A DNA stretch of 64,000 bases from Pseudothermotoga sp. GTDB taxonomy: Bacteria > Thermotogota > Thermotogae > Thermotogales > DSM-5069. Positions 12,467 through 17,604 of the stretch are shown here, piece after piece; within the stretch, counting starts at the first letter, position 1; every line of letters begins with the position of its first letter. The DNA lies in assembly GCA_025060105.1 (NCBI GenBank), contig JANXCS010000002.1, positions 186,001-250,000 of the forward strand. The letters run 5' to 3'. A model generated the notes under the pieces. The model saw only the letters and a list, made by a program, of their open reading frames with translations. It was not told the origin of the DNA and did no database searches. Position numbers and translations under genes: made by a program.

Positions 12467-14635
12467 ATGTCAAAAAGCAAAAAGATCATAATAGTTGAGT
12501 CTCCTGCCAAAGCAAGAACCATCATGGAGATATTGAAAGGTGAATACGAAGTCATTTCCTCCAAAGGTCACGTTCGAGATTTGCCCGAAAAACGTTTCGG
12601 CGTAGATATGAAAGATTTTGAACCTGTTTTTGAAATCATCGACGGTAAGGAAAAAATTGTGAGAGAAATTATCGAGAGAGCTAAAGGAAAAGAAGTGTTC
12701 CTAGCATCTGACATGGATAGAGAAGGCGAAGCGATAGCTTGGCATTTGGCTGATATACTGGGAATTCTTGGAAGAGAGAAAAGGATAGTTTTCAGCGAGA
12801 TAACTCCACAAACCATAATAAACGCTGTTCGTTCCCCGCGGCAAATAGATATGAGAAAAGTCCGCGCTCAGCTTGCGCGTCGCATTTTGGACAGAATCGT
12901 CGGTTATAAGATCAGTCCTTTATTGTGGAAATTGCTCAGGACCGGTTCTAGCGCCGGTAGAGTACAATCAGCCGCACTTAAATTAGTATGTGAACGAGAG
13001 TTACAACGCCATAAATTTGTCCCAAAGAAGTTTTGGAAAGTGCAAGGCTACATAGGTTCACTGAAGTTTTATTTAACGCATGTGGAAGGTAAGAAGATCG
13101 AAATGCAACAAGTGGACGAGGCTTTGGCAAAGAAAATACAGCAAGAAGTAAAAAAGTTGAAACTCGTACAGAAAAAGATTAGATTGGTGCAGAAAAAACC
13201 ACCGTTGCCATTCATAACTAGTACCATGCAACAAGAAGCTGCGAACAAATTCGGTTTCTCTGTCGCTCGAACTATGCAACTTGCTCAGATGCTTTACGAA
13301 GGTGTTGAGACGCCCGAAGGGCACAAGGCTTTCATAACCTATATTAGGACTGACTCAACACGCATCTCTGAATACGCAAGGTTTCAAGCTGAGAGATTCA
13401 TCGAGAAAAATTTTGGAGAGCGTTATATTGGAGAATTCAAATCAGATCAGAAGAAACCCAATATTCAAGACGCTCACGAGGCAATCAGACCAGTCGATGT
13501 TGAGTTGACCCCCGAAAAAGCTGAAAAGCTTCTCGATAGAGATCTATACAAACTTTATAAGCTGATCTGGGAAAGATTCTTAGCATCCCAAATGGCTCCC
13601 GCAACGTATGAGGAAATCGTTTATTTGTTCGAGTGTGACGTTTATATGTTTGAAGCTAAGGTAGAAAGAAGAATCTTTGATGGCTTCGAAGCAGTTTTTG
13701 GAAAACCAACTGAGGCACCGAAAACTTTGGAAGGTGAGACCTTCGAAGTTACAAGATGGGCAATAGAACAAGATGAAACGAAGCCACCTGCAAGGTATAC
13801 AGAATCATCTATGGTCAGGGCGCTAGAGGCAAGAGGGATAGGAAGGCCGAGCACCTATGCAACTATCATCTCCACATTGATCGAGAGAAAATATGTTGTT
13901 AAAGAATCGAAAGAACTCGTACCAACAGTACTCGGATCCATTGTGAACTATTATTTGGAACAAAGATTCCCAAAGATAGTGGATCTAGATTTCACTGCGA
14001 GAATGGAAGAAGCATTAGATGCGATCGAGAGGGGAGAAAAAAACCACAAACAGGTTTTGCAGGAATTCTATAGTGAGTTTTCCGAACAATTCGAGCGAGC
14101 GCAAAGGGAATGGTTATCCATAGATTTGAAGACGAATTTGAACTGCGAGTGCGGGGAAAAATTCTCCTTAAAAATGGGGCGATTCGGTCTTTATCTCACG
14201 TGTCGCACGTGTGGGAAAACCACATCGGTAGATTTGAGTAGTCCTGCGGTTATGGATTATGACTCAATGTATTTCATCGGTCAGGTTAAAAGTTATGCTT
14301 GTCCAAACTGCGGGGAACCTCTCAAAAAATACAGTGGTAAGTATGGTAAGTATTATCACTGCCATAAGTGTAACAAAAATTATAGAGATTTCGCACGCGG
14401 TAACTGTCCAAAATGTGGTTGGATGGTCGAGAAAAAACTCAGCAAAAACAAGCGACAGTTCTTCAAATGTACGAATGATGATTGCGATTATCTGAGTTGG
14501 CTCGAACCTGCGAATGATGCTTGTCCCTATTGCGGTGAGAGGTTACACTACAAAAAATTGCGCTCATCTGAAAAACTGTTCTGCCAGAAATGTAGAAAAA
14601 CTTTTGAAAAAATCGAGGGAGGCACAAAACATTGA
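12467..14635 (+). CDS. topA: DNA topoisomerase I (type IA)
   Basis: The 722-residue enzyme starts with the Toprim domain (VESPAKA at about residues 10-16, then the acidic DMDREGE). It carries the catalytic tyrosine in YIRTDSTR (about 288-295). Four Cys4 zinc ribbons lie at the C-terminus (about residues 562-722): two C-x-C/C-x2-C types followed by CPKCG and CPYCG types. It relaxes negative supercoils. The start ATG lies 5 nt after the previous stop, and ddl overlaps its stop. Confidence 0.97.
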   Translation: MSKSKKIIIVESPAKARTIMEILKGEYEVISSKGHVRDLPEKRFGVDMKDFEPVFEIIDGKEKIVREIIERAKGKEVFLASDMDREGEAIAWHLADILGILGREKRIVFSEITPQTIINAVRSPRQIDMRKVRAQLARRILDRIVGYKISPLLWKLLRTGSSAGRVQSAALKLVCERELQRHKFVPKKFWKVQGYIGSLKFYLTHVEGKKIEMQQVDEALAKKIQQEVKKLKLVQKKIRLVQKKPPLPFITSTMQQEAANKFGFSVARTMQLAQMLYEGVETPEGHKAFITYIRTDSTRISEYARFQAERFIEKNFGERYIGEFKSDQKKPNIQDAHEAIRPVDVELTPEKAEKLLDRDLYKLYKLIWERFLASQMAPATYEEIVYLFECDVYMFEAKVERRIFDGFEAVFGKPTEAPKTLEGETFEVTRWAIEQDETKPPARYTESSMVRALEARGIGRPSTYATIISTLIERKYVVKESKELVPTVLGSIVNYYLEQRFPKIVDLDFTARMEEALDAIERGEKNHKQVLQEFYSEFSEQFERAQREWLSIDLKTNLNCECGEKFSLKMGRFGLYLTCRTCGKTTSVDLSSPAVMDYDSMYFIGQVKSYACPNCGEPLKKYSGKYGKYYHCHKCNKNYRDFARGNCPKCGWMVEKKLSKNKRQFFKCTNDDCDYLSWLEPANDACPYCGERLHYKKLRSSEKLFCQKCRKTFEKIEGGTKH

Positions 14636-15525
14636 AAATTGCGGTTCTGATGGGTGGCATATCCAGAGAACGTGAGATCTCACTGAGGAGCGGTGAAAAC
14701 GTCGTCAAAGCTTTGAAGAAACTTGGACATCAAGTTGCACCGATAGACGTTAGAGAAGATTTCCTCAATATTTTACCAACTTTGAAGAAATTCGATCTGG
14801 TTTTCATAGCATTGCATGGTAAGTTTGGTGAAGATGGTACAATCCAAGCTTTACTCGAGTGGTTGGATGTACCGTACACAGGTTCCAGAGTTTTAGCAAG
14901 TGCGCTGTGTTTTGACAAATTGATGACCTACAGAGTGGTAGAAAAATTCGTTCCAGTCCCAGAATACGTCGTTGTGGATAGCCCCGTAAAAGAATCCCCT
15001 CTCGGTTTTCCCTGTGTCGTAAAACCTCGTAAAGAAGGTTCTAGCATTGGTGTACACATCTGTGATACTCCCGAAGAGCTGCATACATATCTCAAAGAGG
15101 AGCTGAAGATATACAAAGAAATGATCCTACAACGTTATGTTGCTGGTAGAGAACTCACTGTTTCTCTGATTGAGATGAATGGCGAGCTTCAGATATTACC
15201 CATACTTGAATTAAAACCTAAACGCAGGTTCTATGACTACATAGCTAAGTACACCCCAAACATGACAGAATTTGTGCTTCCTGCGCCACTGAGTGACGCA
15301 GAGTACAGAGTTGTTTGCGATAGTTGTTTGAAGGCTTTTAAAGTGTGTGAATGCAGCGGTTTTGCAAGGATAGATGGGATTTTGAAAGATGGAACGTTTT
15401 ATTTTCTTGAAATCAATACTATACCTGGTTTAACAGATTTGAGCGATATGCCTGCATCAGCCCGCGCTGCTGGTATGAGCTTTGAAGATCTAATTGACGC
15501 AATCGTGAAGACGGTGAAAAAATGA
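14632..15525 (+). CDS. ddl: D-alanine--D-alanine ligase
   Basis: The 297-residue ATP-grasp enzyme makes the D-Ala-D-Ala dipeptide for peptidoglycan. It shows the N-terminal GGISRERE motif (about residues 8-15), ALHGKFGEDG (about 61-70), VVKPRKEGSSIGV (about 128-140), and C-terminal FYFLEINTIPGLT with the metal-binding Glu and Asn. The TTG start follows a GGGAGG site and overlaps the topA stop as TTGA. Confidence 0.95.
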   Translation: MKIAVLMGGISREREISLRSGENVVKALKKLGHQVAPIDVREDFLNILPTLKKFDLVFIALHGKFGEDGTIQALLEWLDVPYTGSRVLASALCFDKLMTYRVVEKFVPVPEYVVVDSPVKESPLGFPCVVKPRKEGSSIGVHICDTPEELHTYLKEELKIYKEMILQRYVAGRELTVSLIEMNGELQILPILELKPKRRFYDYIAKYTPNMTEFVLPAPLSDAEYRVVCDSCLKAFKVCECSGFARIDGILKDGTFYFLEINTIPGLTDLSDMPASARAAGMSFEDLIDAIVKTVKK

Positions 15526-16550
15526 GAGTAATAATCGATACGTCGAATTTTTCTACCTGTTTGAGATTCTCCGATAAGATCATAGGTTCATCTGAATACA
15601 GCCTTGGCAACGTTTATTTCCTGTACAACAACGGTCTCGTTCTACGCGCAACCGATGGTTGTTTGAGCAGTTGGATGAGAGTCGGTTCATGTGAACCATT
15701 CGAGGGTGAGATCGCTGTACCTTTGAGACTTCTGAAGGGCTTCCTCACGGGTGATGTCGGTGAGAACTTAAATCTCACCTTATCAGGAGATCAGCTCGTT
15801 GTGAGCTACGGGAATGAAACTTTAAAAATGAAATTGTTCGGAGGCAGAGAAAAACAGTTTCCGGTCGAACACGAATTGGTGGCTCGCTCTAATAGCATGA
15901 GTTTTGTGAAAGCTTTAGACTTTGCCACATCGCCACTGGAGGAAGGAGATTTCACCTCTTTTGGATCGTTCGAGGACAGATTGTTCATCTTTGCTCCCAC
16001 TCATTCAATCGTTTGTTTATCTTGTGTGTCGGGTGAACTTGTAAAACCATTTGTCTTCTCTTTTCCTTACACGAGTGCGAGACATATCGTGAAAGCCTTC
16101 GAGGTTTATAAGAAGAAGGTACCTTTGAATTTTGGGTTGGATGAAGCGCTCATTATAGAATCTGTTGATTTCATCATGCAACTTTGCGGTGAAAAAGGCT
16201 CTGTTGATCCACGTATTGGTAGATTTCTTGGACAACAAAGAGAAAGTTTTCCATTACCAAATGGTTTTCGAAAGTTCATCTCCAAAGCTGCTTGGTTCAT
16301 ACCGAGAGAAAGCACCATCAAAATTGAGTGTACAAAAGGAAGCTTAAGGTTCTTTGGAACCTATGGTACTGTGACTTACAGAGCGATGCTACCGTTTGAA
16401 TTTCCATTGAGTTTTGGAGTAGAATTCTCACCTCACAAAATGAGGTCTGCCTTATCGCGCATGAGCACAAAGTTGCTGCTGAGTGTGGGGGATGATTTCG
16501 TCAAAATAGAAGATGGTAACGGCAAGATAGTGGTGGTGAAGAGGATATGA
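15522..16550 (+). CDS. Divergent DNA sliding-clamp (DnaN beta) fold protein
   Basis: The 342-residue protein lines up by pattern with the three domains of bacterial beta clamps. An N-terminal domain contains G-L-V-L-R-A-T-D-G (compare the family's LTATD) and E-G-E-I-A-V-P-L-R-L-L-K. A middle domain has a strand like R-L-F-I-F-A-P-T-H-S. In the C-terminal domain, E-S-F-P-L-P-N-G-F matches the family's G-x-F-P-d-y and V-E-F-S-P-H-K-M matches iafNpkyl. It ends V-K-R-I in place of the usual M-P-M/I-R-L. It is much more diverged than the T. maritima clamp as I remember it. It could be a paralogue with a special role or the only clamp here. It overlaps ddl and the next gene by ATGA. Confidence 0.6.
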   Translation: MRVIIDTSNFSTCLRFSDKIIGSSEYSLGNVYFLYNNGLVLRATDGCLSSWMRVGSCEPFEGEIAVPLRLLKGFLTGDVGENLNLTLSGDQLVVSYGNETLKMKLFGGREKQFPVEHELVARSNSMSFVKALDFATSPLEEGDFTSFGSFEDRLFIFAPTHSIVCLSCVSGELVKPFVFSFPYTSARHIVKAFEVYKKKVPLNFGLDEALIIESVDFIMQLCGEKGSVDPRIGRFLGQQRESFPLPNGFRKFISKAAWFIPRESTIKIECTKGSLRFFGTYGTVTYRAMLPFEFPLSFGVEFSPHKMRSALSRMSTKLLLSVGDDFVKIEDGNGKIVVVKRI

Positions 16551-17092
16551 CCAAGGATACTTTGAAGCGCGCTTGGAAGTTGTTTTTTGTTTTTTTGAGG
16601 ATTTCCTCCTTCACATTGGGTGGTGGTTATGCCATGGTACCAGTGATGCAATGGGAAATTGACAAGCTCGGCTGGATGAAAAAAGAAGAGTTCCTTTCAA
16701 TACTTTCCGTCGCGCAGTCTATACCTGGGCCTATCGCCTTTAACACTGCCGTCCTGGTTGGAAAAAAAATATCAGGATTGCTCGGTTCCATACTTTCTGG
16801 GATGGCTATTGCTCTTCCTCCCTTCGTTGCTATCGTTGCTGTGGCTAGTTTTCTGAAACCATTTTTGAACAACATCTACGTAAAAGCGTTTTTGATGGGG
16901 ACCTACGCAGCGGTGGTCGGATTGGTCTTCAACGTTCTTCTTGGATTGATTAAGAAGCAACAGTGGAAGTTTTTGAGGATCGTAGTGGTAGGATCAGGTG
17001 CAAGCTTACTCCTACTCAATAGGAATTCACTTTACGCAGTTTTTGCAATCAGCATCTTGGTGCTATACACTTGGGGGAAGGTGAAATCGTGA
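16547..17092 (+). CDS. Chromate transporter (CHR) family, first short subunit
   Basis: The 181-residue integral membrane protein has the CHR motifs F-T-L-G-G-G-Y-A-M near the N-terminus and S-I-P-G-P-I-A-F-N (about residues 62-70), and about five or six membrane segments. Short CHR proteins come in adjacent pairs that together replace one long ChrA; the second half follows immediately. The family was named for chromate efflux, but the physiological substrate in many members is unknown. Confidence 0.88.
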   Translation: MTKDTLKRAWKLFFVFLRISSFTLGGGYAMVPVMQWEIDKLGWMKKEEFLSILSVAQSIPGPIAFNTAVLVGKKISGLLGSILSGMAIALPPFVAIVAVASFLKPFLNNIYVKAFLMGTYAAVVGLVFNVLLGLIKKQQWKFLRIVVVGSGASLLLLNRNSLYAVFAISILVLYTWGKVKS

Positions 17093-17604
17093 GTTTGATC
17101 AAACTGAATCTGATCTTCTTGAAACTTGGTTTCCTCTCTTTCGGAGGTGGATGGGCCATAGTTGGTATTCTCAAAAAAGAACTCATTTCAGCAGGATTCC
17201 TCACATCCACCGAGTTTGCAGAAATGGTTTCCATTGCGCAGATGACACCTGGACCCATCGCATTGAATTTGGCAACATACGTGGGCTACAAATATTTTGG
17301 CTTTTGGGGTGGATTTTTGAACACGTTTTTCTTTTTGCTAGCTCCAGCGATCACTATGATCTCCGTCTTTATGGTAGGTAAAAACGTGAGGCTGAACTCG
17401 GATAGATTGTCTCAAGCTCTCACGGGGTTCACGACGATCATGGTGTTAGTCACCTTGATCTCACTCGCTAATTCAAGGCTTACCGATCTGTGGTTTTTTC
17501 TAATTGCGATGACCGTGTTTGTGTGTTTGAACCGCTTCAAGATTCATCCTTTGATATTGATATTCACCGGGGGATTCATGGGCATTCTTCTGTACGCTCA
17601 CTGA
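17089..17604 (+). CDS. Chromate transporter (CHR) family, second short subunit
   Basis: I chose the GTG at 17089 because it overlaps the previous stop as GTGA and a GGGGAAGG site lies upstream. The 171-residue product has the CHR motifs F-G-G-G-W-A-I and T-P-G-P-I-A-L-N and several membrane segments. It should pair with the preceding half-size subunit in opposite membrane orientation. Its last 29 nt overlap the end of nadE on the other strand. No terminator is visible between them. Confidence 0.88.
   Translation: MSLIKLNLIFLKLGFLSFGGGWAIVGILKKELISAGFLTSTEFAEMVSIAQMTPGPIALNLATYVGYKYFGFWGGFLNTFFFLLAPAITMISVFMVGKNVRLNSDRLSQALTGFTTIMVLVTLISLANSRLTDLWFFLIAMTVFVCLNRFKIHPLILIFTGGFMGILLYAH

Follow-up and report, generated by a model that had tools for sequence, protein, structure and literature searches.

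A divergent second beta-clamp paralogue conserved across the Thermotogota

The window analyzed here, a stretch of 64,000 nucleotides of Pseudothermotoga sp. DNA, encodes a 342-residue protein, hereafter clamp2, which on the basis of profile alignment and a predicted structure is a homologue of the bacterial beta clamp along its full length, and which is present in addition to an ordinary DnaN. In the textbook view a bacterium has one beta clamp, and the only exceptions known to us are recent duplicates and phage copies. We consider it reasonably probable, though far from settled, that clamp2 is an ancient accessory clamp of the Thermotogota that rings DNA and recruits other partners, with the ring, its loading and the partners all being inferred.

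The clamp2 reading frame begins with ATG and overlaps by 4 bp both ddl upstream and a putative transporter frame downstream (Table 1). Because the ends of the frames overlap by 4 bp, topA, ddl, clamp2 and the two short frames that follow make up a tight, probably co-translated run in this genome. The two short frames resemble halves of a ChrA-type chromate transporter, and their function is presumably unrelated to that of clamp2.

Table 1. Features of the clamp2 locus, numbered from the first letter of the window.
Feature	Position	Strand	Basis or remark
topA (DNA topoisomerase I), upstream in the same gene run	12467..14635	+	Identity from sequence, no domain search
ddl (D-alanine--D-alanine ligase), 4-bp overlap with clamp2	14632..15525	+	Identity from sequence, no domain search
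clamp2 gene, divergent second beta-clamp paralogue, 342 aa	15522..16550	+	ORF list, homology, structure, orthologues
Clamp domain 1, about residues 1-114, helices 7-21 and 68-75, beta strands	15522..15863	+	AlphaFold2; boundary approximate
T-D-G-C-L motif, residues 44-48, domain 1	15651..15665	+	Conservation; C47 90%, D45 95%
Clamp domain 2, about residues 118-224, helices 125-135 and 183-196	15873..16193	+	AlphaFold2; boundary approximate
P-Y-x-S/T-x-R-H-x-V-K motif, residues 182-191	16065..16094	+	R187 and K191 invariant; H188 90%
C-G-E motif, residues 222-224, end of last domain 2 strand	16185..16193	+	C222 92% conserved
Clamp domain 3, about residues 243-342, helices 249-259 and 304-311	16248..16547	+	AlphaFold2; R308 and R313 conserved
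Two short overlapping ORFs directly 3' of clamp2	16547..17604 (16547-17092, 17071-17604)	+	

Searched as a single sequence, clamp2 had no matching family in Pfam or NCBIfam up to E 1. It did not reach the cut-offs of the DnaN models in these collections, which gave only scattered weak matches among members of the family, and a BLASTP comparison with the DnaN of its own genome was at chance level (E 1.5), ruling out a recent duplication of dnaN. The only library match of the single sequence was to phrog_947, a family of phage processivity factors (E 6.9e-7), which was matched by 11 of 28 clamp2 family members. Weak matches to haemolysins (E 0.1), from a phmmer search of the PDB with the single sequence, were judged to be due to chance.

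The homology was established with an alignment of 53 sequences, the orthologues having been taken from related genomes. Compared by hhalign with 19 canonical DnaN proteins of Thermotogota, the clamp2 family aligned over 332 columns with a probability of 97.7 and an E-value of 2e-12, while no decoy, neither the reversed DnaN alignment nor any of ten with shuffled columns, reached a probability of 0.5 (E 0.13-0.71). In a PDB search with the family profile, every match at E < 0.3 was a beta clamp (best 6.9e-6), and with the same profile the canonical dnaN genes of several relatives were also picked up, with E-values reaching 1e-18. A usable AlphaFold2 model came only from the 53-sequence alignment (pLDDT 93.8, pTM 0.91; pLDDT 33 with the single sequence), and it predicts three tandem domains with two main helices in each. 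The best 50 of 528 significant matches to this model in a Foldseek search of the PDB were all bacterial beta clamps, mostly with TM scores of 0.75-0.83 (about 0.8 for E. coli beta) and identities of 12-15%. The original prediction had called the product clamp-like from short motifs, proposing structure prediction as a check; the motifs are indeed in the translation, the likeness exceeds chance by hhalign and its decoys, and the modelled fold is that of a three-domain clamp. One of its two domain 3 motifs, FSPHK, aligns with the canonical FNPKF, whereas the other, FPLPNGF (residues 243-249), is simply the start of the domain and is not diagnostic.

Like canonical DnaN, both that of E. coli (2POL/3BEP) and those of Thermotogota, clamp2 has three tandem domains in the same order that align over the full length, including the L-x-K/R-A-A at the start of domain 3 and the F-S-P-H-x-x-R helix. 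The two nevertheless share only about 14-16% identity, and clamp2 proteins, mostly 320-370 residues long, are net positive where DnaN is strongly negative.

The window genome has one canonical dnaN (G000:C2:255137-256231), located 53 kb from clamp2 on the same contig and encoding a protein that ends in VMPIRIV. With a separate, ordinary dnaN in the same genome, clamp2 is therefore a true paralogue and not the main chromosomal clamp gene. This search of the genome, which the original prediction had suggested, bears out its idea of a second clamp, here a chromosomal one outside mobile elements. Elsewhere in the phylum, divergent extra copies of the canonical type, which may be carried by mobile elements, occur at G039:C23:20505-21584 and G058:C55:30324-31463; they are 31% and 26% identical to DnaN. 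A further clamp gene, closer to canonical dnaN and with an internal TAG, is found at G060:C1:1818039-1819064, and roughly 10 kb away this genome has a second polC-like gene, which contains a TAA (G060:C1:1829520-1831880); second polC-like copies are also present in several other genomes of the same family, f9.

Matches to clamp2 were found in 99 of 103 Thermotogota genomes, representing 37 of 38 genera, and almost always as a single copy; two of these matches are weak, one being a fragment near a contig end (G081) and the other being the DnaN of its genome (G054). The four genomes without clamp2 (G010, G033, G035 and G048) are all drafts, and a repeated search of them at a loose threshold gave nothing credible; the gene may truly have been lost from G033 and G035, two species of one genus. 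In a genome taken to be that of T. maritima MSB8, clamp2 lies between alaS and an hslO-like gene, and is, we believe, TM1395. Outside the phylum, no match at E <= 1e-15 was obtained in about 287 genomes, and a pattern scan of the genomes of 84,980 species with a narrower clamp2 alignment returned Thermotogota records only. On the clamp2 gene tree, families f1, f3, f4, f5, f8, f9 and f11 are each monophyletic, and therefore the gene has been inherited vertically and was probably already present in the ancestor of the Thermotogota.

Two irregular copies were seen. At G089:C9:270749-271671, clamp2 is in two pieces with an internal TGA and TAG and seems to be interrupted by a frameshift or by stops, which would be either one of the few apparent losses or a sequencing error. 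A close relative (G004:C1:11552-13097, L057) carries, behind the 3' half of clamp2, a near-identical second copy of that half, the first copy having an altered C-terminus that ends in TPSLTIFSPPQS; this may be either a tandem duplication or an effect of assembly.

In close species pairs, clamp2 has dN/dS values of 0.04-0.11, and those of dnaN in these pairs are 0.015-0.04; clamp2 is thus strongly constrained yet faster-evolving than DnaN. These values rule out a decaying gene. Identity between clamp2 proteins of different families is only about 20-30%, which could be taken as the mark of an ordinary dnaN duplicate, fast-evolving or decaying and without a distinct function, but this explanation is contradicted by the presence of the gene in nearly every genus, by the selection on it and by residues that are invariant across the phylum, and we regard it as highly improbable.

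A phage origin, in which a captured phage clamp became chromosomal, is harder to dismiss and would be compatible with an accessory clamp. Phage beta-type processivity factors (PHROG 947) give the sole single-sequence match noted above, weak but significant, and phage clamps share the clamp2 fold, fitting it about as well as bacterial clamps do. Unlike those factors, however, clamp2 is a chromosomal gene among housekeeping neighbours, inherited vertically from the ancestor of the phylum onward, and no relative was found in one pattern-based scan of viral contigs. We accordingly rejected the notion that it is a gene of a mobile element or phage today, and consider a phage source distinctly unlikely, although an identity of about 15% is too low to resolve where the gene came from.

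Clamp2 also differs from DnaN in having lost the motifs of the peptide-binding pocket. The C-terminus of domain 3 lacks the canonical MPMRL/MPIRI tail, and the loss of MPMRL that had been remarked on in the one protein extends to the family, with MPxR absent from every aligned row. Neither half of the pocket, SDG(H/F)RL in domain 2 or the C-terminal MPxR, occurs in any of 74 clamp2 rows (two of them duplicates), while canonical DnaN has them in 18 and 14 of 19, respectively. In their place are conserved motifs absent from the canonical pattern, namely TDGC, PYxSxRHxxK and CGE, and the most conserved positions of the family are C222, C47, H188, P182, Y183, D45, R187, G22, D133 and K191. We infer from pseudo-symmetry that TDGC occupies in domain 1 the position that SDG(H/F)RL has in domain 2 of canonical clamps, and that CGE, which closes domain 2, likewise corresponds to the MPMRL that closes domain 3 in canonical clamps. 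Given this placing, the conserved surface may be a displaced pocket or, alternatively, may reflect a contact between C47 and C222, the inference having been made without coordinates.

R187, H188 and K191 belong to the motif where the second helix of domain 2 begins, and all three residues lie in that helix, which in beta lines the channel. The equivalent helix of E. coli beta has R197 and the DNA-contacting K198 at its start (PMC5042465). In the alignment, the E. coli DNA contacts K12, R24, Q149, Y153, Y154 and K198 are not individually retained. The six channel-side helices of clamp2 have a mean charge of +9.0, compared with +2.3 in DnaN, and the net charge of the whole protein is +5, compared with -18; both the charges and the orientation of the helices are inferred from the sequence and its secondary structure rather than from coordinates. 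Conservation is also seen at E99, L101 and Y286 of the edge strands.

These features allow for a protein with the clamp fold that does not encircle DNA, being either a monomeric or one-sided binder of DNA or polymerase, or a decoy that limits loading by occupying the clamp loader or DnaN. The absence of both pocket halves, the faster evolution relative to DnaN and the missing canonical DNA contacts are all in keeping with this. Clamp2 nevertheless retains three intact domains, each with its two main helices, and basic residues on the channel side, which a pure decoy would not need, are among its best conserved, so that we think this alternative unlikely.

The same data could point to a heterodimer, a mixed ring of clamp2 and DnaN having one canonical pocket and one altered face, comparable to the heterotrimers of archaeal PCNA. 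Both proteins are present in nearly all Thermotogota genomes, the opposite charges of basic clamp2 and acidic DnaN would favour pairing, and the edge-strand residues are conserved. On the other hand, nothing has evidently changed in the canonical Thermotogota DnaN that would call for another partner, and the expression of two unlinked genes would have to be matched; we do not expect this arrangement to be the right one, but it cannot be set aside.

The genes around clamp2 provide a lead to its function. The link between ddl and clamp2 is kept in all four genomes read from the family of the window, while topA adjoins clamp2 only in the genus of the window; in other families alaS, an M23-peptidase gene, tsaD or a YchF-type GTPase gene is nearby. 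An earlier suggestion that clamp2 might aid topoisomerase can therefore be discarded as a general explanation. In families f9 and f11, however, clamp2 follows immediately after polC, on the same strand and within about 25 bp, in 30 of 37 scorable genomes (16/16 in f11, the Kosmotogaceae; 14/21 in f9, covering all but one genus), usually in the order ruvC-polC-clamp2, with RuvC and PolC identified by Pfam. A role near PolC is the strongest lead to follow from so close an arrangement in two families, although other families, including that of the window, keep clamp2 without the polC linkage.

At all 15 polC-linked loci read, PolC ends in Q[ILM]xLF. A C-terminal motif of the Q-x-x-L-F type is the usual beta-binding peptide (PMC3919608). 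As far as can be judged from sequence alone, this peptide suits the intact pocket of DnaN, and with the C-terminal QxxLF retained, the possibility that the clamp motif of PolC has been altered to suit clamp2 is unsupported. The clamp-loader delta family PF06144 had no match in the window genome, though it was matched in T. maritima, probably reflecting divergence below the threshold and not absence.

We therefore return to the accessory clamp as the preferred explanation. Two copies of clamp2 would close head-to-tail into a ring on double-stranded DNA, as DnaN does, and this ring would act beside PolC as an accessory clamp, either at the replication fork itself or in repair or recombination linked to it. 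Having given up the canonical pocket for QLxLF peptides, clamp2 should not compete with DnaN for PolC, and would instead recruit other partners, perhaps through the conserved surface formed by TDGC of domain 1 and CGE of domain 2. Ring closure, the encirclement of DNA, loading, partners and any work with PolC are inferred, with the basic helices and conserved edge strands bearing only indirectly on the ring. A bolder version, which remains possible but which we would not yet bet on, is that Thermotogota replicate or repair DNA with two different sliding clamps, canonical DnaN serving PolC and another ring in which the partner site has moved from the cleft between domains 2 and 3 to that between domains 1 and 2, making it a new class of clamp with its own clients and possibly able to form a mixed ring with DnaN.

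Duplicate clamps have been described before. DnaN-2 of Bacillus anthracis and its relatives shares about 40% with DnaN-1 and is reported to support replication (reviewed in PMC3290774, citing Yang and Miller 2008). Like clamp2, it is encoded on the chromosome of a PolC-using bacterium that also has an ordinary DnaN. Unlike DnaN-2, clamp2 no longer has the pocket, goes undetected when compared by BLASTP with the DnaN of the same genome, and is nearly universal in its phylum. The searchable literature, which excludes subscription papers, yielded no description of a second clamp in Thermotogota, and as far as it shows, what is new about clamp2 is how deep and conserved it is, the loss of its pocket and its linkage to polC.

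A second clamp without the canonical pocket, present since the ancestor of the phylum and linked to polC in two families, would be a missing component of the Thermotogota replisome, which structural biologists use as a thermophilic model. Such a clamp raises questions that can be tested, including whether a bacterial cell has two rings, what loads each of them and what the partners of the second are. A well-studied model genome, moreover, still contains a core-type replication gene without a Pfam or NCBIfam model. Clamp2 thus suggests that a part of the DNA replication or repair machinery of the Thermotogota has yet to be described.
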